Assembly (NCBI GenBank): GCA_024195265.1
Contig: JAJLRJ010000013.1
Span: 12,241,822 to 12,305,821 of the forward strand
Source of the DNA: Dendrophyllia cribrosa
Lineage: Eukaryota; Cnidaria; Anthozoa; Scleractinia; Dendrophylliidae
DNA: 64,000 nt
Direction of reading: 5' to 3'
A program made the translations under genes and the position numbers. Position 1 is the first letter of the stretch. Each line of letters starts with the position of its first letter. Of the stretch, positions 52,640 to 62,744 are shown in pieces. Under the pieces are notes generated by a model. The model was not told where the DNA came from and made no database searches. It worked only from the letters and a program-made list of their open reading frames with translations.

Positions 52640-53225
52640 ATAAAAACGTCACTCACTCAATATGTCGCTTATTTTGGTAATGCCAGCGTTGTACCAATTG
52701 TTGTAAAAAACAGGTTTGTTTTCTATCAGGATTTTTCTGTTGTTCCACAATGATTCGTTTCTAGGATGCGTTCCGCAGTCGTGTTCCGTTGCGATTTTGA
52801 ACTCATGCCAATATTTTAGCATTATGTTAAAAAGACAAGATTTCCGTGTTTGTGCAAAAGATGATTAGGGATTATTTTCCTGGAAGCTTGTGAATCATCC
52901 TGAATTCTGCTTATCCAAGCTAGCTTCAGTGCCTTTTCCATGATTTTGAAATCACACATTTTCAAGCCGCCATCTTTTTTTCTCCGATTAAGGTATTTCT
53001 TTTGATTTTAGGGGGCTTTCCGGACCAAATAAAGTTGAAGATTAATTTGTTGATTTCTTGGATATAGTGATCTGGAACAGGCAGTACAGAAGCAGAATAA
53101 ACTAATTTAGAAATCCCAAGAGTCTTGACAATGTTAAGTTTTCCATAAAGAGTTAAATTTCTTCGTTTCCAAGTGTTCAACAATTTCTCCAGGAGCAGCA
53201 TAGAGCGTTGGTGATTCGGGATCAC
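52640..53225 (-). pseudogene. Non-LTR retrotransposon (LINE) reverse-transcriptase remnant, frameshifted
   Basis: The minus strand encodes a stretch typical of the region after the reverse-transcriptase core of LINE ORF2 proteins: WKRRNLTLYGKLNIVKT, then SVLPVPDHYIQEINKLIFNF and WSGKPPKIKRNTLIGEKK. At a run of seven A (about 52976-52982 on the plus strand as T) the frame shifts. The continuation, GLKMCDFKIMEKALKLAW, lies in another frame and leads on to weaker similarity down to about 52640. There is a stop after the shift, and the 5' part of the element is missing. L1/Tx1-like affiliation is from memory. Its 5'-truncated side forms the left arm of the hairpin at 53.2 kb. Confidence 0.8.
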
Positions 53226-53361
53226 CTAAAATAAGGCCCCAAATGCCCGAGTTAAGCCCTCACACGAGTCATTGTCATTCCTCGTGTGAGGGCTTAACTC
53301 GGGCATTTGGGGCCTTATTTTAGGTGATCCCGAATGCACCAACGCTCTAAGCTGCTCACTG
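53188..53361. repeat. Long near-perfect inverted repeat (hairpin) at the element border
   Basis: Arm 53201-53268 is the reverse complement of 53281-53349 except for one extra G in the right arm. A weaker match continues outward on both sides (GCTGCTC with one mismatch and one indel) to about 53188 and 53361. The loop is 12 bases (53269-53280). The outer part of the left arm is LINE coding sequence; the right arm leads into the viral element. This could be a terminal inverted repeat in fold-back form, a rearrangement scar or an assembly fold-back. Confidence 0.85.
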
Positions 53362-53372
53362 GTTAATGCTGC

Positions 53373-53533
53373 TCCGGTACGAGATCACCTCCACAGTTGC
53401 TTGTGAATGCTGATCCGGCACGAGATCACCAATTGAAGAAACCCCACCCCTGTACATACCAACCCACATGGTAATGGCACAGAGACCCGGCACGAGATCA
53501 CCAATTGAAGAAAATAAAACCCCTGTATATAAC
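53373..53533 (+). repeat. Tandem leader repeats upstream of the DNA polymerase
   Basis: CCGGCACGAGATCACCAATT starts at 53415 and again at 53487, each followed by GAAGAAA and then CCCCTGTAYATA. A shorter version (CCGGTACGAGATCACC) lies at 53373. Each long copy ends with the promoter-like AT motif: TGTACATACC at 53451-53460 and TGTATATAAC at 53524-53533. The second directly precedes the ATG chosen for the polymerase, so the leader or promoter seems to have been duplicated. Confidence 0.8.
53521..53533 (+). promoter_or_regulatory. Promoter-like motif before the DNA polymerase
   Basis: CCTGTATATAAC ends directly before the ATG at 53534. It is the plus-strand counterpart of the TATACC motif placed just before ATGs elsewhere in the element, which favours 53534 over the upstream ATG at 53468 as the start. 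Confidence 0.55.
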
Positions 53534-56500
53534 ATGGCGGTTCAACGTCTTGACTTCAATCCAAGGAACCACGATTACTTCGGTAATTGGTTGCATGGTT
53601 ATAAGATGAACGTCCCTGATGGCTACCAAATCAAGGACCTAAATTCATTTTTCATAACTAATCGGGCTGCTTTTCTCCAGAAAATTGCACGCGAAGTCAC
53701 AGAGCTTGGAGGGGTGAAGGTCACTTTGTCATTCGATGTTCGCTTTTCAATGGAAGGCGAGGACAATCGAAAAATTACTCACTTCTTTTGGAACGTCAAT
53801 CCACTGATTGTTACAAATCTATATCAGCTTCGAGAGGAGGGCATCCTGGAAGACATTGTGAATGGCTTTGAGGAAGAGATTGCCAGATGGCAGCATTTGG
53901 GTTCTGGTTGGGTGATTGAGAACATCAAAACTGTTTACCTTGAGTTCGGGGCATACCATCCTCTACGAGGCGGCACATTTATCCCAACACCATCAAAACT
54001 CAGGCCAAAGCAGGCCATCATCAATGTGAAGAACAGAGATAACCAGTGTCTGCGCTGGGCACTGAGATCTGCATTGTTTCCTGTAAATGTTAACACAAAC
54101 AGAACAGGCAGTTATCCCACTGATGATGGTCTAAACTTCACTGGAATAGATTTTCCAACACCATTGAGTCAGATATCCAAGGTTGTGCGTCAAAACAACC
54201 TTACAATCAACATCTATGGATACAAGAACAATAAGGTGGTTGTGATCAGAGTCAGTGAGCTAGAGAATCCCAATCTGCGAAGGATTAAACTGATGATGCT
54301 CACAGACACACATACATCACATTATTGTTACATTAAGAGCATGAGCAGGCTTCTACACAGCGAGTTCAACGCTGGTCGCCGCATGCATCACTGTGACAAG
54401 TGTCTCCAAGCCTTTTCTTCAGAACGGGTTCTCACCGATCATCTATTCTATTGCAGAGGAGTCAAAGGCAGGCCGATGCGAACTGAAATGCCAAAAGAAG
54501 GCGAAAACTTCCTCCACTTCAAGAACTTCCAGAACCAGATGAAGAAGCCTTGGGTCATCTATGCTGACTTTGAAAGCATTGTCGAAAAAGTCCACGGCTG
54601 CATACCAGATCCCGAACAGAGCAGCACCACTGCAACATCCGTACATAAACCCTGCGGGTTCTGCATGCTAGCTGTTCGCTCTGATGGAGAGACAAAGGGG
54701 CCTTATCTATACAGAGGAGAGGATTCGGTGCCAGTCTTTCTCGACAGCCTTCAACAGCTGGAAGGAGTGATCAGAGACGAGCTGCAATACAAGGTACCAC
54801 TCTCCATGACAAGAACAGAGTGGACAGAATTCGACCGTGCAACAGATTGCCACATCTGTGACAAGTCTCTCGTCAAGGAGAACCACAGGGACGCCGTTGC
54901 GGCCTATGATCCAAACACCGGGGAACACGTGGGCTTCATTCATCGTCACACTAACAAATGTTATCAAAAGACATTCAAAACTTACATCCAGGACGATGAT
55001 GGTAAACTGGGTGAGTTCCCATTTATTGGGCCAAGAAACAAAAGGCAAGCCATCACAGACAAAATATTCGAGCAGGTCGACTGTCTGTTCTGTGGGGAGT
55101 CTCTAATCCAAGACTCTGTTCGAGAAGCAGTCAAAGATCATTGCCACATCACAGGCAAATATCGGGGTGCGGCTCACCATTCTTGCAACATCAACCATTT
55201 CCGAACCAACCCGAAAATGGAAATAATCCCGGTAATCTTTCACAACTTGAAGGGTTATGATGCACACCACATCATGAGTGGTATTGCAAACGCGCATTCT
55301 GATTTGAAATGCATCCCAAACAACATGGAGAAATACATCTCTTTCTCCCTCGGCAAGCTGAGATTCATTGACAGCTTGCAGTTCATGCAGTCAAGCTTAA
55401 GTGCCCTGGTTGATGCAAACAAGCCAGAGTCCTTCACAATCACGGCAAGCCACGAGAAGAACCAAGCCAGACGCAGCCTTCTCATGCAAAAAGGGATTTA
55501 CCCTTACGAATACATGGACTCTTGGACTCGATTCGATGAGGTCTCTCTCCCGCCGAAGGATGCCTTCTACAGCGAGCTCAAGAAGGAAGGCATCTCAGAT
55601 AAAGAATACGCCCACGCGCAAAAAGTGTGGGAGGTATTTGAATGCAAGACGCTTGGAGAGTACCACGACCTCTACCTTGAGACAGATGTGCTTCTTCTGG
55701 CCGATGTTTTCGAGAACTTCAGAAAAACATGCCTGCAACATTACAAGCTTGACCCGGCATATTATTATACAAGCCCTGGTCTCTCATGGGACGCTCTTCT
55801 TAGGTATACGAAAATCAACCTGGAGCTTCTCACAGACGTCAACATGCACCTCTTTGTCGAAAGAGGCTTGCGAGGCGGCATATCCATGGAGAGCAGGCGG
55901 CACTGCAAGGCCAACAACCCCTATCTTCGTGACCACAACCCTGACGAAGAGTCAAGTTATATCATGTATCTCGACGCGAACAATCTCTATGGATGGGCCA
56001 TGAGTCAGCCTCTCCCAGTTGGCAACTTCGCATGGTGCCCTGTCTTTCCAACACAACAACAGATAAGGAGATGGAGGCCAAACAGAAAGATTGGTTACAT
56101 TCTCGAGGTTGATCTTGAGTACCCCGAGGAGCTGCATGATGAGCACAACGCTTATCCTCTTGCCCCAGAAAGGCAGGTCGTTCCAAAGGAATGGATGTCA
56201 CCATACCAAAGGGTCTTGGCAGAGGGACAGCCAGAAGACAAGACGCAGAAGCTGCTCCTTACACTGCGCAACAAATCCAGGTACGTGTTGCATTACAGGG
56301 CACTCCAGCAGTACCTGGATCTTGGAATGAAGTTGACGAAAATCCATAAAATGCTCAAGTTTGAGCAGAGGGCGTGGATGGAGCCATACATCTCCCTAAA
56401 CACCGAGCTCAGAAAGAAGGCCACTTAAGACTTCGAGAAGAACTTCTTCAAGCTCATGAACAACTCCGTCTTCGGTAAGACAATGGAGAACCTCAGAAAT

Positions 56501-57238
56501 CGAATCGACATGAAGCTTGTACGGGCGCACGAGCAAGACAAGATTAGAAAGCTTATCGCAAGCCCTCTGTTCACTAGAGCAACGGTCTTTGGAAACAATC
56601 TGGCGGGGATACAGATGCACAGGGTGAACATCCTCTTCAACCGCCCAGTTTACACAGGCATGTGCATCCTTGATCTATCCAAAACACTGATGTATGACTT
56701 TTATTACAAGCATCTCAAGCTGAAGTACGGTACGCGAGTAGATCTACTCTACACAGACACAGACTCCCTACTCCTCGAGATCAAGACGGAGGATGTCTAC
56801 AAAGACATGGAGAACCTTCGGGACGAACTATACGACACAAGCGATTATCCCAAGGACCATCCACTCCACAGCCAGCTTAACAAGAAGGTCATCGGCAAGA
56901 TGAAGGACGAGTGCGCGGGTAAGCCGATCTCGGAGGTTGTGTGTCTTCGCTCGAAGATGTACTCCATCCTTCTGGATGACGACAGAAACATCAAGAAAGC
57001 AAAGGGCACCACCAAGGTTGTCACAAAGAAAGAGATCACCCACCAGAATTACAAGGACGCCCTCTTCGACCGGCGAACCTTCAAGCACGGGATGGACAGG
57101 CTTAGAAGCAAAGGCCACCAAATCTTCGGCGAGCACATCACCAAGACAACGCTCTCTCCCTTTGACTCTAAGCGCTGGATCAAGGATGATGGCATCCACA
57201 CGCTGGCATATGGTCACAAAGATATCGGTGGCAACTGA
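53534..57238 (+). pseudogene. polB: Protein-primed family B DNA polymerase (Polinton/adintovirus pPolB), interrupted by one in-frame TAA
   Basis: It would copy the element's linear DNA by protein priming. The frame spans 1234 codons and is intact except for TAA at 56426-56428 (codon 965). Residue numbers are from the ATG at 53534; an upstream in-frame ATG at 53468 would add 22 residues. Visible parts: a Cys2/His-Cys finger near 286-307, a CHIC cluster near 438, an endonuclease VII-like DHCH...AHHSCN segment near 535-552, exonuclease motifs DFES (345), FHNLKGYD (569) and YHDLYLETD (710), polymerase motif A LDANNLYGW (814), motif B NSVFGKT (~977), and motif C YTDTDS (~1073-1078). The stop lies between motifs A and B, so the first product of 964 residues would lack the catalytic core. 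A 260-residue frame could start at ATG 56456. Its 3' end overlaps the convergent integrase by 25 bases. Either a single inactivating mutation or a sequence error; all other motifs look functional. Confidence 0.92.
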
Positions 57239-58203
57239 GTGCCAGGCGGCACAACCATCAGCTCTTCACGAACGAAGCCTCTCTTAGGGCCATCGTAGAG
57301 ACAATAAACTACTGGCCCATTCGGCTTGGTTACAATCCTTTGTATTTGGTAGACCTTCAAAGACCAGATCGGATCGGTCGCACGCCTCCCACCCCCTTCC
57401 AGCTCGCCAGGTTGATACAAATATCTCACACTCACCCGTGGTGGGAGCTTCTTCTCATTCACCCCCACAGGCCTAGCATATGGAGTCGCGGGCTTGGTAG
57501 AAAAGGCTTTCTCTTTGATTGCATCCTTTGGCTTCTTGCTAGTTAGTCTTGTTACTTCATTGTTCAAGGCCGAGACAACATCTGGCAGTCTTTTGACCCA
57601 AGCAGTCGACCGGCCAGAGGGCATATTCATTTCAACGGCATACTGATAACCAAACAGCCTTTCAGCCAGGGTTCGGTTGAATCTCTCCACAATTGCTTGG
57701 TCTCTGTGGATATCAACCCGTCCGCGACGAATGGTCGTTTTGTTGTTTTCCATTGTCTTAGTCACAGCACCCATAAACTCTTTCCCAGGGTCAACTTGCA
57801 AGAGTTGCGGCCATTTCAAAGGACCACGTCTGTAAATCCGCGCAAATGCCCTTGAGACTTCTTCAGACTCTTTTGAAGTTAGAGGTTCTGCTGCTTTGAA
57901 ACGGCTAGCCACATCCACAAGGGTTAATGCGTATTTGTAAATCTTTCTCCCGTGTGGAAGTTTGTCGTGGGGCAGGAAGAGAAGATCTGCTTGATGCACT
58001 GCATTGGGTGATGAGACATCAAACTTGGGTCGAGGGATATGGCGAGGCGCTGGGAGGTAAACTTGCCAAAGAGCTTGTTTGACCAGCCATTTCTTTGCGA
58101 CATCATCAGAGACCTTGGCCGCTGCAGCTAGCTTTTTGACAACGGCAAGCCCTTTCCAATATCCTTTCGGGCTATAACAGATCTTAGAGAGTTTCGACTC
58201 CAT
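57214..58203 (-). CDS. int: Retroviral-type DDE integrase (rve), Polinton family
   Basis: 329 residues, intact. It would insert the element's DNA into the host genome by strand transfer. The RNase H-fold core shows the catalytic triad: Asp in VHQADLLFLP (about 73), Asp in VDPGKEFMG (about 138) and Glu in IVERFNRTLAERLF (about 173), with near-canonical D-x(34/35)-E spacing. LVDVASRF (95-102) is typical of rve domains. A C-terminal SH3/chromo-like part (roughly 240-325, ending FVREELMVVPPG) resembles that of Polinton integrases. It is convergent with the polymerase, with overlapping stops. The ATG at 58203 follows the AT motif by 12 bases. Confidence 0.9.
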   Translation of the reverse strand: MESKLSKICYSPKGYWKGLAVVKKLAAAAKVSDDVAKKWLVKQALWQVYLPAPRHIPRPKFDVSSPNAVHQADLLFLPHDKLPHGRKIYKYALTLVDVASRFKAAEPLTSKESEEVSRAFARIYRRGPLKWPQLLQVDPGKEFMGAVTKTMENNKTTIRRGRVDIHRDQAIVERFNRTLAERLFGYQYAVEMNMPSGRSTAWVKRLPDVVSALNNEVTRLTSKKPKDAIKEKAFSTKPATPYARPVGVNEKKLPPRVSVRYLYQPGELEGGGRRATDPIWSLKVYQIQRIVTKPNGPVVYCLYDGPKRGFVREELMVVPPGTQLPPISL

Positions 58204-58215
58204 AGGGGTGCGCGT

Positions 58216-58231
58216 GGTATACTTATGTATT
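58216..58231 (-). promoter_or_regulatory. Promoter-like motif before the integrase
   Basis: In gene orientation ATACATAAGTATACC, ending 12 bases before the ATG. It lies in the short space after the stop of the 145-aa gene (58245). Confidence 0.6.
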
Positions 58232-58244
58232 GTGTTGTTTGTGT

Positions 58245-58682
58245 TTAAAGAAAGCGATAAGCCACATACCCACCCGCAAGCAGGGTGCCTCCAATGAATG
58301 CAAGTTCGCCATTCTGCTGTTGTGGACTGGGCTTATAGAAGTCCGAGAACTGGGCCTCTTTGTAGTCTTTGATTTGTTTATCTGGTTGCGTTTGGTGCAT
58401 CTGGTTATACAAGGCCAGGGCTTGGTCAGTGGTTTGGAAGTTTTTGCTAGCTTGGTGTTCCTTCCGATCGTTGGCTGCAATCCAGTCGAGGAGTTTGGTG
58501 CGGTCCTTCTGGTATTTGGCGTAAGCCGCTTGGTATTGTTCCAGGGCGTGGTCATGTCGGATTTTCTCATCCATTGCTGCCTTGCCGTTATCACCAGACA
58601 GATATTTTGCGAGATAATTGCCGCCCGTGAAAGCGGCCGCATTGAGAACAGCGCCAAGGGCCATTATTGCAATCGAGGCCAT
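58245..58682 (-). CDS. 145-aa protein with hydrophobic ends
   Basis: Function unknown. The N-terminus (about 1-25, ALGAVLNAAAFTGG) is hydrophobic and Ala/Gly-rich. The middle (about 30-115) is charged and Gln-rich and probably helical, and the last ~20 residues (LAFIGGTLLAGGYVAYRF) form a clear membrane segment. From memory, similar proteins occur beside capsid genes in Polinton-like elements of cnidarians. A membrane-linked or internal virion protein is possible. The upstream neighbour's stop is only 16 bases away. Confidence 0.75.
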   Translation of the reverse strand: MASIAIMALGAVLNAAAFTGGNYLAKYLSGDNGKAAMDEKIRHDHALEQYQAAYAKYQKDRTKLLDWIAANDRKEHQASKNFQTTDQALALYNQMHQTQPDKQIKDYKEAQFSDFYKPSPQQQNGELAFIGGTLLAGGYVAYRFL

Positions 58683-58698
58683 TGTGTATACATATGGT
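58683..58698 (-). promoter_or_regulatory. Promoter-like motif before the 145-aa gene
   Basis: ACCATATGTATACACA in gene orientation fills the whole 16-base gap between the preceding stop and the ATG. Confidence 0.65.
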
Positions 58699-58920
58699 TT
58701 ACAAGTTGTCTGGGAGGATTTTCTGGTCCTCGAGATATTTCTTCAGCGCGATGGTGCCAGCCATGACGGTTGTGAACTTGACGTAATTCATCAAGCTTGC
58801 ACTGGGGTCAGCGGTTAAGTTCTCTTTGATTGTCTTTTTACCAATCCAACCAATACCGGCGACAAGACCAGTGATTGTTGCGGCGTCGAGGATAGACTTC
58901 ACAAGCTTGTTGTCAGACAT
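58699..58920 (-). CDS. 73-aa small membrane protein
   Basis: Short intact frame with one or two hydrophobic helices: ATITGLVAGIGWIG at about 14-27 and YVKFTTVMAGTIAL at about 46-59. The C-terminus is charged. I do not recognise the family. Reality is supported by the promoter-like motif before it, by 16-base spacing to the next gene, and by its place in a run of similar small genes. It may be a membrane-active virion component. Confidence 0.7.
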   Translation of the reverse strand: MSDNKLVKSILDAATITGLVAGIGWIGKKTIKENLTADPSASLMNYVKFTTVMAGTIALKKYLEDQKILPDNL

Positions 58921-58930
58921 GGTTTGTGTC

Positions 58931-58952
58931 CAGTATACATATGATTTTTTAT
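58931..58952 (-). promoter_or_regulatory. Promoter-like motif before the 73-aa gene
   Basis: An A/T tract followed by CATATGTATACTG in gene orientation, ending about 10 bases before the ATG. Confidence 0.6.
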
Positions 58953-58961
58953 TTTTCTGAC

Positions 58962-59210
58962 TCAGACCCGACCTCGGTCTCTGCCTCGACCTCGGGTTCG
59001 GACTCGGGACTCCTCGACTCGGACTCGGGGCTCCTCGACCTCGTCCTCAGACTCAGACTCAGACTCGGGCTCGGGCCTGGGTTCGGGTCTGTTATGCTTA
59101 TTCATGGCTATACCGTAAACTGTATCAAAGGCGACCGTAGTAAATCCAAACCAAAGAAGAACCACACCACTGATTGCAGCAGAATTAATCAAAGCTTGGA
59201 AAGGATTCAT
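58962..59210 (-). CDS. 82-aa protein: membrane segment plus acidic and arginine-rich tail
   Basis: Residues about 10-33 (AISGVVLLWFGFTTVAF) form a membrane helix. It is followed by an acidic Glu-Ser repeat (PEPESESESEDEVEE) and a basic Arg-rich end (RTRGRGRDRGRV). The tail is encoded by a GAGTCT-like simple repeat, so its length may vary. No family is recognised. The basic tail could bind DNA, but that is a guess. Promoter motif and tight packing support it as a gene. Confidence 0.65.
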   Translation of the reverse strand: MNPFQALINSAAISGVVLLWFGFTTVAFDTVYGIAMNKHNRPEPRPEPESESESEDEVEEPRVRVEESRVRTRGRGRDRGRV

Positions 59211-59215
59211 GGTGT

Positions 59216-59241
59216 CAGTATATATATATATGTTTTTTATT
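59216..59241 (-). promoter_or_regulatory. Promoter-like motif before the 82-aa gene
   Basis: An A/T tract, then an extended CATATATATATATACTG in gene orientation, ending about 5 bases before the ATG. It overlaps the stop codon of the 163-aa gene at 59237-59239. Confidence 0.65.
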
Positions 59242-59728
59242 CCATTTTTTTAATTCCTTGTCTTACCGGAATTCGAGATGGGGGTGTCGCTGGTGGTGTT
59301 GCAGTGGGGGCTGGCGTGGGGGTGTTTGCTGGTGGTGTGTTAGATTTACGTCCAAGCCTTTGCATTATGGCTTCGCGTTGGTAATAAACACCAGCAGCAG
59401 AGACAATCAACCCTGCAACCCCCAGAATATAAATGATTGAGTTGTTATTGCTGTCACTTGGTGTGTCACTTGTTGCACCCCCAGTTGTGTCACTTGTTGC
59501 CCCACTTGTTGCCCCACTTGTTGAGGGTGCAGGCTTTTGTGCTTCGGCCTTTTTCTTTGCTTCCCGGGCCATGCGGTTGCGCTCTGCTAGCCTTTTGCCA
59601 GAAGCAACGCGGCCGGGGTTCTTTTCTGTTGCAGGCTTTGTTTTCGGGGCCTCAGAGGTAACACGGGCAGGTGTTGGTGTTGGAGTTGGAGTTTCTTCAG
59701 GGATCGTCTCGAGTGGTGTGGCCATCAT
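59237..59728 (-). CDS. 163-aa Pro/Thr-rich protein with a central membrane segment
   Basis: Two adjacent ATGs (59728 and 59725). The N-terminal half is rich in Pro, Thr, Lys and Ala with a basic stretch (GKRLAERNRMAREAKKKAEA) near 43-62, then a Thr/Ser/Gly repeat near 72-93. A hydrophobic helix, IIYILGVAGLIVSAAGVYY, follows near 98-116, and the end is Pro/Thr-rich (TPPANTPTPAPT...). The layout suggests a single-pass membrane or mucin-like protein. Family not recognised. Confidence 0.68.
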   Translation of the reverse strand: MMATPLETIPEETPTPTPTPARVTSEAPKTKPATEKNPGRVASGKRLAERNRMAREAKKKAEAQKPAPSTSGATSGATSDTTGGATSDTPSDSNNNSIIYILGVAGLIVSAAGVYYQREAIMQRLGRKSNTPPANTPTPAPTATPPATPPSRIPVRQGIKKME

Positions 59729-59752
59729 GTATATATGTGAATTTTTAATTTA
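59729..59752 (-). promoter_or_regulatory. Promoter-like motif before the 163-aa gene
   Basis: An A/T-rich run followed by TTCACATATATAC in gene orientation, directly before the first ATG. Confidence 0.65.
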
Positions 59753-59812
59753 TCTTGTACCAGGTTGCTGCCAGGTTGCTGCCAGGTTTCTTCAAGGTTG
59801 CTGCGAGGTCTC
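59753..59812 (-). repeat. Short degenerate tandem repeat after the 207-aa gene
   Basis: Plus-strand GGTTGCTGCCA occurs twice in a row near 59763-59784. Degenerate copies follow up to about 59812 and reach into the last codons of the 207-aa gene. It makes this spacer (63 bases) the longest in the minus-strand series. Confidence 0.6.
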
Positions 59813-60415
59813 TCCAGGTCCCAGCCCAACTTCATCAAGTCCATCAAGTGGATAACCTTCACTGTCTCTGGTTGGATGTGTGGGTGGTGGTTCCAATTCT
59901 ATCAAATCAGGGTTGTGATCAGGCTCTCGTTCAAACTTGATGTGTTTTGTTGTGATGAGAGCAGCATTGGCAAGCGCCAGCCATCGTCCGCATCGCACGG
60001 CAATAGCCCCAGCAAGATTTGACAGCTCCTGGTTGATGATGTAGTCGTTCTTGAGTTCTTTCTGCAATTCCACCACATCCTCAACCGGGGCCACCATGCC
60101 AACGCCTTTGGATATGAGCATGATGGCTGAATCAACAAGGGATTCGGTTGTCTTGTTGCCGATGTATGCCTCGTACCGTTTGCAGTACTTGTCAACGTCC
60201 TTGTCTGACAACCGCTTGACATGATCGTGTGTGAGCTGCACGCCGATGGCTTCTTTAGCCTTGCCAGTTGAAACAAGGATTGCAAGCTTCTCACGTTTGG
60301 CAGTAATGTCATTGTCTCCAACTAGCCCTGTTGGAGGTGCGGCACCAGGGGTGGCCTCCAGCATCGACATTACTTCGTTAAAGTCGAACTGGTCTTCAGC
60401 TGCTTCTGCCATCAT
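59792..60415 (-). CDS. 207-aa protein of unknown function
   Basis: Intact frame with adjacent ATGs at 60415 and 60412. The acidic N-terminus (EDQFDFNEVMSMLE) is followed by a mostly helical, charged middle (KLAILVSTGKAKEAIGVQLT; KRLSDKDVDKYCKRYEAYIG), a mildly hydrophobic stretch near 145-165 (NLAGAIAVRCGRWLALANAA) and a Pro-rich acidic tail. I do not recognise it. Length and place between membrane proteins and the ATPase would allow a structural protein, but I see no jelly-roll signature and do not call it the penton. Confidence 0.75.
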   Translation of the reverse strand: MMAEAAEDQFDFNEVMSMLEATPGAAPPTGLVGDNDITAKREKLAILVSTGKAKEAIGVQLTHDHVKRLSDKDVDKYCKRYEAYIGNKTTESLVDSAIMLISKGVGMVAPVEDVVELQKELKNDYIINQELSNLAGAIAVRCGRWLALANAALITTKHIKFEREPDHNPDLIELEPPPTHPTRDSEGYPLDGLDEVGLGPGETSQQP

Positions 60416-60420
60416 CAGGG

Positions 60421-60441
60421 GTATACATATGTTTTTTTATT
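60421..60441 (-). promoter_or_regulatory. Promoter-like motif before the 207-aa gene
   Basis: AATAAAAAAACATATGTATACC in part, in gene orientation. It overlaps the preceding stop codon (60437-60439) and ends five bases before the ATG. Confidence 0.65.
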
Positions 60442-60676
60442 TTTCAATAATTCTCTTGATGTCTGGCAAAAGGGTTTCAAGCTCTCGTATAAGCCCTGCC
60501 ATGGTGTCTGGCATAGAATTCAACCGCAATGGATATCTGGCCAGAAGCATGAGGCGCAGATCTTCCTCACCAGCGGCTTTGATAATTTTGTTTTGCACCT
60601 CAAGTGTGTGTTTGTGCAATTCATCCAAAAGCTGTGAAAGCACAGTGAGCTTGTGTAGACTTGTTGGCGCATTCAT
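60437..60676 (-). CDS. 79-aa helical protein of unknown function
   Basis: Small intact frame. It looks all-helical with a leucine-rich amphipathic pattern (LTVLSQLLDELHKHTLEVQN; LIRELETLLPDIKRIIEK), suited to a coiled coil or a scaffold-like partner. No membrane segment. It starts 15 bases after the ATPase stop and is preceded by a strong copy of the promoter-like motif, which argues that it is a real gene. Confidence 0.7.
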   Translation of the reverse strand: MNAPTSLHKLTVLSQLLDELHKHTLEVQNKIIKAAGEEDLRLMLLARYPLRLNSMPDTMAGLIRELETLLPDIKRIIEK

Positions 60677-60696
60677 GGTATATATGTGTGTTTAAA
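60677..60696 (-). promoter_or_regulatory. Promoter-like motif before the 79-aa gene
   Basis: TTTAAACACACATATATACC in gene orientation, directly abutting the ATG and overlapping the ATPase stop codon. Confidence 0.7.
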
Positions 60697-61291
60697 TCTT
60701 GTACTCAATTCCATACGGGTGTCTAAGAGAGAAAACCAGGTGGGAGAACTTGCGGGATTTGAGCCTTGCATTTAACTGTTTGTACTCCTCGTGGGAGAGC
60801 TCGCAGGCATAATCTTCGAATATGGCTTTGGTTGTCTTGCTGGAGGGCGTGTAAAAGAGCACAACCACTGCAATGTTATCACGATATGGCTTGGCAATGC
60901 TTGTGATCTGCTGGTTCAAGACCCACAGGGATATGCCGTCATGCCTTGCACTGAACCCCAGATTGACCAGCTGGCCCGTGCGGCCTTTGACATCTTTGGA
61001 GGCGGCGCAGTCATCGAGAATGAATAAAGTGTTGGTGCATGTGAAAAAGAAGCTTGCCAGTCTCAACCAGTCTTCGATTTCATGCTGTTGGCAGACAATC
61101 ACGAAGATGTTCGGATCGCGATCCACGAAGCCATCGTATGTCTTGTTCTTAACAAATGTGGGACAGAATAAAACGATGTAATCAAAACAACCCCTAAAAG
61201 GGCCTCGCAGTTGGGAGAGAATATACTGTGTCTTGCCAGAGTTAGTGGGGCCCACGGTTAGTGCATTGAATGGCAGCTTTCTTGGGTCCAT
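60692..61291 (-). CDS. Genome-packaging ATPase (A32/FtsK-HerA type)
   Basis: 199 residues from the ATG at 61291. The frame is open three codons further, but only to a GTG, so the ATG is preferred. It would pump the element's DNA into capsids using ATP. Walker A is GPTNSGKT (14-21) after LPFNALTV, Walker B is NTLFILDDCA (about 87-96), and VLNQQITSIAK near 130 fits the sensor/Gln region. The end (FSHLVFSLRHPYGIEYKI) is complete. Its 5' end overlaps the 64-aa frame by 50 bases in another frame. It lacks a good copy of the promoter-like motif (only AATATAGG nearby), so it may be expressed from the same transcript as the 64-aa frame. Confidence 0.9.
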   Translation of the reverse strand: MDPRKLPFNALTVGPTNSGKTQYILSQLRGPFRGCFDYIVLFCPTFVKNKTYDGFVDRDPNIFVIVCQQHEIEDWLRLASFFFTCTNTLFILDDCAASKDVKGRTGQLVNLGFSARHDGISLWVLNQQITSIAKPYRDNIAVVVLFYTPSSKTTKAIFEDYACELSHEEYKQLNARLKSRKFSHLVFSLRHPYGIEYKI

Positions 61292-61436
61292 GACCAACAC
61301 CTATATTAGTTGGTTTGTTAACTGGCGGGGAGGGGGCCTTTGCCAGAAGTCTTTGTATTTCATTGTGTGGCAGATATCCTGTGGATGGCAGAGGAGCCGG
61401 CTTGGCATAGAAGTTGATCTTGTTTCTTGTGGCCAT
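61242..61436 (-). CDS. 64-aa protein overlapping the start of the ATPase gene
   Basis: A short frame, basic and Pro-rich (KPAPLPSTGYLPHNEI; AKAPSPPVNKPTNIG), with no membrane helix. The ATG at 61436 lies 15 bases after the capsid gene's stop and directly after a good copy of the promoter-like motif, in a good start context (ACCATGG). Its last 17 codons overlap the ATPase start in a different frame. It may be a real small virion or regulatory protein, or merely an upstream frame on the ATPase mRNA. Confidence 0.55.
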   Translation of the reverse strand: MATRNKINFYAKPAPLPSTGYLPHNEIQRLLAKAPSPPVNKPTNIGVGHGPKKAAIQCTNRGPH

Positions 61437-61454
61437 GGTATATTTATGCGTTTA
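61437..61454 (-). promoter_or_regulatory. Promoter-like motif before the 64-aa gene / ATPase
   Basis: TAAACGCATAAATATACC in gene orientation, overlapping the capsid gene's stop codon and abutting the ATG. It probably also serves the ATPase. Confidence 0.65.
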
Positions 61455-62702
61455 GTACTGTACAGATTCCAGCTGCCCGCCCAAGATGTTCATCTGTGAG
61501 TCTGAGATGGTGAAGATGTGGCAGAGTGCGTTTCCCGAGCCTTTGCCATCTCGTTCAATCTCGAGTTGCACGCCATCCTGTGTGTTGACGAGCCTTTGGC
61601 CGCTGCCGTGCAGGGTTTTGTCGGCCATGGATCGCAGGTCAATCCAGAGACCAAACTTGTTGCCTGTTAGATATTTTGTCAAGTTCATGTTAGGCCTGCC
61701 TCGCGTGTGTGGGGTAAAATGCCGGGTTATCTCTCTCCACATGTCTGTATCACTGATGCCCTCGTCGTAAAGCCTGTTTGGAACACCGTTGACTGTGACC
61801 TTCACTTTGGTGATGTCTGGGTTGAAATAGTTCTCGGAGTCCCTTGCACCAGCCGTGTAGGGGTTGATGAACAGCAAGAGGATGCCCTTGAGAGACCGGC
61901 GCTGTGGGTTAACCCGAAGATTCAGCCGAGTGTCACCACTTTTTGAGAAGGGATGCACCCGATCTCGCATCACGTGGTCATAGGCGAACTCCTTGCCACT
62001 GGTGTAAGTGCTTGTTGCCTCATCGGCCAGCTCCTTACTTCTGATCGTCTCATACTCCAGCTGGATGTTTTCCAACTTGTACACGAGCTTGCTTGTGTCT
62101 GAGCCTCGGACAACTTGATTTGTGGGAGCTAGGGTTAGTTCAAAGACCAGATCGTTATACAGTGCTTGAGGGTATATAACACCGTGATCAGTTAAGATTT
62201 GGTGATCCAGCTTGATGCGATACTTATTCTTGTATATTGTCTCTAGCTTGTTCTCTGCATCCACGCCTGAGGTCTTCTTGTCGCCAGCACCAGAGCGGAT
62301 CTTGCACAAATCCACACTCTGGATGCCCTCCATAAGCATATTTTCCCGCTCATCGATCGATTTGAATAAGTCTTCGAAGATCTTGTAGATGTCGTACCCA
62401 ACTGTGTCCTGGACTGTGGTGGCTGCAAACTTTACAACGAATCTGTCCACCAGGGCCCGAGAAACATTTTGTACGAGAAAGTTGTTTGCATGGCCGCCGG
62501 AGAGATTGATGTTAAACACCAGGGCAAGTGAGCCGGACACAATAACATCGTCAGTGCCTAGCTTGGGCACAGAGACGTACAGTGTCTCACCGGGATTGGC
62601 CTCAGATGGGTTGAATGTGATGCGCTTGACGGTTCGCTCTGCTTTCATGGCTTTCAGTGTCTTTTCACTGTGAGATGGAAGTAAATTCGGTTGCACAGCC
62701 AT
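61452..62702 (-). CDS. Major capsid protein, double jelly-roll (Polinton/adintovirus hexon)
   Basis: 416 residues, intact. It would form the icosahedral shell as pseudo-hexameric trimers. Recognised by the FNPSEANPGETLYVSVPKL stretch near 30-48, then VIVSGSLALVFNINLSGG, VDRFVVKFAATTVQDTVGYD with a following IYKIFEDLF near 87-115, and a second-barrel-like part with LLLFINPYTAGARDSENYF and VTVNGVPNRLYDEGI. From memory these match Polinton capsid proteins. No signal peptide. ATG 62702 directly follows the promoter-like motif in an ACCATGG context. It is divergent from the coiled-coil gene across a 42-base spacer. Confidence 0.85.
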   Translation of the reverse strand: MAVQPNLLPSHSEKTLKAMKAERTVKRITFNPSEANPGETLYVSVPKLGTDDVIVSGSLALVFNINLSGGHANNFLVQNVSRALVDRFVVKFAATTVQDTVGYDIYKIFEDLFKSIDERENMLMEGIQSVDLCKIRSGAGDKKTSGVDAENKLETIYKNKYRIKLDHQILTDHGVIYPQALYNDLVFELTLAPTNQVVRGSDTSKLVYKLENIQLEYETIRSKELADEATSTYTSGKEFAYDHVMRDRVHPFSKSGDTRLNLRVNPQRRSLKGILLLFINPYTAGARDSENYFNPDITKVKVTVNGVPNRLYDEGISDTDMWREITRHFTPHTRGRPNMNLTKYLTGNKFGLWIDLRSMADKTLHGSGQRLVNTQDGVQLEIERDGKGSGNALCHIFTISDSQMNILGGQLESVQY

Positions 62703-62724
62703 GGTATATATTTGTGTTTTTAAA
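62703..62724 (-). promoter_or_regulatory. Promoter-like motif before the major capsid gene
   Basis: TTAAAAACACAAATATATACC in part, in gene orientation, abutting the ATG. It forms one half of a 42-base divergent promoter region. Confidence 0.7.
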
Positions 62725-62744
62725 ATTCATATTTATATATCATC
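62722..62744 (+). promoter_or_regulatory. Promoter-like motif before the coiled-coil gene
   Basis: AAAATTCATATTTATATATC on the plus strand, ending three bases before the ATG at 62745. It is back to back with the capsid motif. Confidence 0.65.

Follow-up and report, generated by a model that had tools for sequence, protein, structure and literature searches.

In African swine fever virus (ASFV), where transcription starts have been mapped, early transcription begins ~10 bp downstream of an early promoter motif (EPM), late genes have TATA initiators and leaders with a median length of 9 nt, and a viral TBP and TFIIB have been proposed to read the late promoters in an arrangement that differs from the cellular geometry (PMC7163114, PMC7458399; PMC numbers here and below stand for the available parts of each source). 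Mavirus/EMALE and other virophages carry an AT-rich motif before the genes of a small integrated element (PMC8547959), and the yeast pGKL elements have an element-specific upstream conserved sequence (UCS, ATNTGA) 20–40 nt before each start codon together with an initiator (PMC6211774). As far as the literature searched shows, transcription of Polintons and adintoviruses is still an open question: the word “promoter” was absent from the available main text of PMC11071296, PMC8363768 and PMC11071308, and no Polinton promoter pair or TFIIB-like Polinton gene was reported in the literature searched, papers naming both “polinton” and “TFIIB” being outside that scope. Here we analysed a Polinton-like element of the coral Dendrophyllia cribrosa, lying in a 64,000-nt stretch of DNA (the window; assembly GCA_024195265.1, contig JAJLRJ010000013.1, 12,241,822–12,305,821, forward strand). 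Its genes fell by type into two mutually exclusive motif classes. A core, CATATRTATAC, stood close before the ATGs of virion-type genes, small open reading frames (ORFs) and the integrase (designated late class), and PolB, the YqaJ exonuclease and a zinc-ribbon gene (designated early class) had no good core and shared CCAATTGAA ~32 nt before the ATG.

This layout resembled that of ASFV, with an upstream motif for early genes, a TATA-type initiator for late genes and very short predicted late leaders, and by analogy it supported the likeness to late promoters of large DNA viruses proposed in an earlier reading of the same DNA (the original prediction). An AT-rich motif close to the ATG of virion genes, as in late promoters of the nucleocytoplasmic large DNA virus (NCLDV) kind, was indeed present, the virion role of these genes being partly presumed. 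ASFV, however, encodes its own polymerase and has measured starts, whereas those of the element are predicted from sequence; the element core preceded nearly all late-class genes, whereas of 55 late ASFV genes 17 have the late promoter motif upstream; and the likeness of CCAATTGAA to the EPM is one of layout. Mavirus differs in its motif letters (TCTA), the element having in addition two classes and its own TFIIB-like gene, and the pGKL elements differ in remaining cytoplasmic, with polymerase and capping enzyme genes of their own.

Matching at 10 or more of its 11 letters, the core was found at 9 of 11 gene starts in the window (MCP, 64, 79, 207, 163, 82, 73, 145 and INT). Ten near-perfect cores were present in the window, all before those nine starts, and none in the flank (positions 1–53200, 53.2 kb), confirming that an AT-rich motif precedes nearly every gene start of the element. 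The original prediction had counted ten of eleven genes at 0–25 bases; nine stood with a core, PolB and the coiled-coil gene had weaker variants, the packaging ATPase had no copy of its own, and core-to-ATG distances in this copy were 0–13 nt. The sites were as follows.

62704–62714, minus strand: late-class core CAAATATATAC, 1 nt before the capsid-like ATG
61438–61448, minus strand: late-class core CATAAATATAC, 1 nt before the 64-aa ORF ATG
60678–60688, minus strand: late-class core CACATATATAC, 1 nt before the 79-aa gene ATG
60421–60431, minus strand: late-class core CATATGTATAC, 5 nt before the 207-aa gene ATG
59729–59739, minus strand: late-class core CACATATATAC, abutting the 163-aa gene ATG
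59218–59232, minus strand: overlapping pair of late-class core matches before the 82-aa gene
58933–58943, minus strand: late-class core CATATGTATAC, 12 nt before the 73-aa gene ATG
58686–58696, minus strand: late-class core CATATGTATAC, 3 nt before the 145-aa gene ATG
58217–58227, minus strand: late-class core CATAAGTATAC, 13 nt before the integrase ATG
62730–62741, plus strand: weaker variant TATTTATATATC, 3 nt before the coiled-coil gene ATG
53524–53533, plus strand: degenerate initiator-like TGTATATAAC, abutting the PolB ATG (53534)

A trailing “CC” was retained chiefly where the motif abutted the ATG. The longer form CATAWRTATACC occurred in the 40 nt before the ATG at 8 of 11 window starts with at most two mismatches and at 7 of 11 with at most one; neither count was matched by any of 5000 Markov-1 sets made from the same upstreams, and only 1 of 1713 flank ATGs had CATAWRTATACC at ≤2 mismatches.

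The enrichment in related elements that the original prediction called for came out in its favour. Genome-wide, CATAWRTATACCATG (the CATAWRTATACC + ATG form) was found at 365 places versus 17 for a reversed control, and the first eight of these, fetched with their flanks, all headed ORFs of such elements. Among the copies fetched, L029–L058 were chosen by capsid protein (L029 being the window's own copy) and L059–L078 by distance from capsid genes. In 14 gene families there were 267 distinct upstreams; 237 of these matched the core at 9 or more of its 11 letters (shuffled expectation ~9.7) and 257 at 8 or more (~56 expected). Rows whose expected position had no Met were excluded from this count (INT 1/15, p145 1/17, p163 1/11, p79 2/50, 64-aa 5/45, MCP 1/34 and, in a set of seven families, p222 1/30, p221 5/9 and the others 0), and starts lying <60 nt from the end of a locus were not used. 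Conversely, of 174 perfect cores in the loci covered, 168 were followed within 25 nt by an ATG whose frame stayed open for at least 40 codons or up to the end of the locus. Core-to-ATG distances over the copies were 0–23 nt, mostly 0–13, and the leaders between core and ATG were short and frequently A- and C-rich. All 30 capsid loci, the window copy being one of them, had ACAAATATATACC before the ATG, and several differed further upstream. The copies themselves were numerous: a first look at the own genome gave 1536–1545 candidate places for the capsid-like gene and 2050 for the PolB N-terminus. Of these more than a thousand candidate places in one genome, 100–150 were scored in each search; 85 of the 100 scored capsid copies had no internal stop (counted by hand). 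When the own genome was queried with P0069, from a sister genome, the 100 scored places belonged to the same family, with no second one among them.

In ten families (7–28 distinct starts each), pN/pS was 0.11–0.51 in the first 12–20 codons, a statistic that ignores shared ancestry and from which starts with more than four differences from the commonest peptide, or containing a stop, were dropped. Because non-synonymous variants are depleted in these codons, the ATG beside the motif is used and the transcript must hold it. An ordinary host TATA box, with transcripts starting ~30 nt downstream, would suit the TATATA within the core, and TATATAAA lies ~25 nt upstream of the capsid core in the spacer between the capsid-like and coiled-coil genes, where the motif of one gene could serve the divergent gene; such transcripts would, however, miss the adjacent ATG, whose first codons are selected. 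Since the transcript must contain that ATG, the motif is excluded as a −25 to −30 host TATA box of the adjacent gene, as the original prediction had argued, and we give the host TATA reading hardly any credence.

Equally far-fetched is a 3′-end signal of the upstream gene in place of a promoter. AATAAA or ATTAAA does stand close before the core at several junctions, but the capsid gene carries the motif with no same-strand gene directly upstream, and the motif follows the downstream gene when the upstream gene changes; at the integrase slot it was kept while the upstream sequence varied between copies, and tandem copies of the 222-aa gene, which we take to be penton-like, had one motif each. 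Trans-splicing was set aside because the core, as read from the sequence, has no AG acceptor.

A translation signal was also considered, in which an A/T-rich stretch plus ACC on long mRNAs would aid ribosomes to start at the ATG. The motif hugs the ATG, its CC suits a Kozak context, and the start of the ATPase ORF lies within the end of the 64-aa ORF (61242–61436) in a different frame, as in coupled translation; the ATPase start MDPRKLPFNA, without a preceding core, was repeated in many copies, and the overlap suggests coupled or leaky translation of the ATPase. Against this, the spacing is variable (mostly 0–13 nt), the core persists where the CC is lost, the genes divide by type into two motif classes, and divergent starts stand only 42 nt apart, which together make a translation signal improbable. 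A promoter reading would place the transcript start in or just upstream of the core.

The second signal, CCAATTGAA, was found in the element at two PolB start codons:

53501–53509, plus strand: early-class CCAATTGAA, its CAATTG 32 nt before the PolB ATG (53534)
53429–53437, plus strand: second CCAATTGAA, in a repeat at the terminal inverted repeat (TIR), its CAATTG 38 nt before an alternative PolB ATG (53468)

It also lay 32 nt before the YqaJ ATG of the same element copy. In other PolB copies, picked by protein, CCAATTG was present in 18 of 20, with CAATTG 32–33 nt before the ATG; the remaining two had one point change and one other arrangement, respectively. CCAATTGAA stood 31–32 nt before the ATG of nine zinc-ribbon genes, whose 230-aa (L099–L101 intact, L102 truncated) and 221-aa (L103–L106, L009) versions are 36% alike in protein; CCAATTG itself drew attention to five of the nine (those of 230 aa and L064/L104), and protein matches, with a Met, to the other four. 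No CCAATTGG?AA was found in the 53.2-kb flank, and across the other loci (280,299 bases) CCAATTG-type sites were confined to eight zinc-ribbon gene starts. The separation held in both directions: none of 264 upstreams of 13 core-class families had at least 8 of 9 letters of CCAATTGAA at −60 to −21, and the early-class 221-aa gene had a core of at least 9 of 11 letters in none of three upstreams. The claim of one element-specific promoter motif thus stood as to specificity and gave way as to number, the core being one of two classes and PolB, YqaJ and the TFIIB-like gene carrying CCAATTGAA instead.

The N-termini of sister-genome proteins spelled both signals. Among 120 capsid homologues listed, 98 started at the homologous Met, 10 fell outside the search pattern and 12 were N-extended; nine of these 12 read I, L or M followed by YT directly before the homologous Met, which fits TATACC, and the other three comprised one IYM, one MYTHT and one uninformative. 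Extended proteins beginning at the motif's own ATG (three MYT and one MYTHT) are selected by the motif; six of the nine YT proteins were not so selected, four of the six being near-identical. Among 120 zinc-ribbon homologues listed, four were extended by 11 or more residues upstream of the Met read as homologous, and all four had PIE exactly 11 codons upstream, which fits CCAATTGAA at the same spacing; many others were longer with a different N-terminus and hence not comparable. No relatives were found in viral contigs, prokaryote genome contigs or phages, one search giving only an endonuclease VII match.

The zinc-ribbon gene is present in the element, and its product comprised a zinc ribbon followed by a helical domain. 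Its best, though weak, structural matches were TFIIB and giant-virus VLTF3/TFIIB proteins, and, as in the NCLDV proteins, the ribbon is followed by a helical domain, which may be cyclin-like; its sequence similarity to VLTF3 and TFIIB lay below cut-offs. The CxxC...CxxCG columns of the ribbon were invariant or nearly so in alignments A2 and A3. A single-sequence search with the 221-aa protein gave no relatives, and a search with alignment A2 gave 165. PF04947 stayed below its cut-off (best E 0.082, in five of eight A2 members) and was absent among the 25 of 33 families listed for A3; PF08271 reached 0.0033 at best, in 14 of 42 A3 members, with no cut-off reached among the rows listed. Factor profiles against PDB sequences gave nothing convincing, a TFIIB ribbon appearing at E 0.31.

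Taken together, it is probable that CATATRTATAC is a late-class, initiator-type core promoter and CCAATTGAA an early promoter, and that a TFIIB-like early factor helps to switch on the late class. The arrangement suggests that the element runs its own early/late gene programme, much as giant viruses do. In such a programme PolB, YqaJ and the TFIIB/VLTF3-like factor, each with CCAATTGAA and a weak initiator, would be transcribed first, most simply by host RNA polymerase II (Pol II). The factor would then help to turn on the virion-type genes, small ORFs and integrase driven by the core; the polymerase that it redirects would be host Pol II or, less probably, that of a helper virus, and late transcription would yield mostly monocistronic mRNAs with leaders of roughly 0–25 nt. 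The more general proposal, that Polintons of this family encode their own early-made TFIIB/VLTF3-type factor which draws host Pol II onto a private late initiator at the ATG, we put at a little under an even chance. If it is true, the two-stage programme and the VLTF3-type factor regarded as characteristic of giant viruses are present in Polintons too, and may be older than the giant viruses. The two-class promoter code and the TFIIB-like gene offer testable parts, namely a gene-finding motif, a candidate regulator and a possible transcription link between Polintons and giant viruses, and the motif lets one ask which of the many genome copies are switched on, and by what.

Which polymerase would read these promoters bears on a virophage-like alternative, in which the element is transcribed by the polymerase and factors of a helper large DNA virus and both motifs are promoters of that virus, a scheme put forward for mavirus with CroV. 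One promoter motif common to many genes is the virophage pattern (PMC8547959, PMC10945749), CCAATTGAA and the NCLDV early motif AAAATTGA have AATTGA in common (PMC5294985), and no polymerase gene was seen in the ORFs scanned. The element, however, has its own TFIIB/VLTF3-like gene, of which the available parts of PMC8547959 and PMC10945749 make no mention for virophages, and AATAAA/ATTAAA was present at the ends of 6 of 17 genes, compared with 21 of 516 background windows, with overlap of A-rich spacers; these sites would fit nuclear 3′-end processing. We regard a helper virus as unlikely. The cytoplasmic-type transcription suggested in the original prediction was not borne out either, with those 3′ signals and no RNA polymerase or capping gene in 19 ORFs scanned with Pfam.

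Several points weigh against the two-promoter interpretation with its early factor. The factor matches are weak (no Foldseek E ≤1e-3, low TM-scores, no Pfam cut-off reached), unrelated Pfam families score equally for it (DUF2535, 0.0024), and factor and late motif are linked by co-occurrence alone. The packaging ATPase lacks the motif, and the core (at least 9 of 11 letters) was weaker in the 64-aa (25/33), coiled-coil (8/13), 608-aa (12/17) and 222-aa (16/23) genes. Over the whole window the loose 12-mer (≤2 mismatches) occurred 14 times against a chance mean of 11.4, and 22 of 100 shuffles reached 14; this total not being above chance, the signal is positional. L001–L008 and L010–L028 were chosen by perfect motif matches, a selection bias, and the copies share ancestry, so that copy counts are not independent. 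Finally, the CCAATTGAA of PolB, of a 151-aa ORF in the right TIR (p151) and perhaps of YqaJ may come from one TIR duplication, so that independent support for this motif is mainly that of PolB and the two diverged zinc-ribbon genes.

The element starts with a TIR at ~53192 and runs ~6.2 kb past the window end; its right end is only approximate because the fetched stretch stops 3 bases after the matched repeat. The TIR, PolB and an A32/FtsK-type packaging ATPase were all found, as in Polinton/adintovirus-type elements. Its main features are these.

53192–53476, no strand: left TIR, 285 bp, 98.9% identical to the right repeat
53534–57238, plus strand: PolB gene, broken into ORFs 53534–56428 (PF03175, E 2.7e-15) and 56456–57238 (no Pfam match)
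57214–58203, minus strand: integrase gene (INT), 329 aa, rve E 2.4e-6, 28.1 bits and so below the cut-off of 32.6
60692–61300, minus strand: packaging ATPase ORF without its own core, Pox_A32 (PF04665) E 1.1e-11
61452–62702, minus strand: capsid-like gene (MCP), 416 aa, the capsid label being that of the earlier reader

For the 416-aa protein, sequence searches of Pfam and the PDB gave no match and PHROG none with E under 0.1; 1865 homologues were found. After PolB, the minus-strand order was integrase, 145, 73, 82, 163, 207 and 79 aa, ATPase, 64 aa and the 416-aa capsid-like gene. The coiled-coil gene is divergent from the last of these, the two ATGs being 42 nt apart. Past the window end lay 608-aa, 222-aa and 152-aa genes, the 221-aa zinc-ribbon gene and the YqaJ exonuclease. 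In the leader of the 152-aa gene (L059–L078), 6 of 18 distinct copies had an extra ATG (the gene's own ATG being preceded by CCCATGCC or CCCATGTC); ordinary scanning would suffer from it unless the cap lay very close.

In L002, L006 and L008 other small genes were found instead (MASPFSEED, MAVPFSKED and MATPYSKEA), with a core before each; they seem to occupy the slot after the 145-aa gene, because in two of the three the upstream sequence closes in the same way as that gene. The outermost ~170 bp of each TIR (53189–53362 in the window, and the right end in L009) formed a 92% palindrome resembling a hairpin end. The right TIR region (L009:6267–6722) contained the 151-aa ORF, with a PolB-like start and, by eye, a C2H2-like finger.

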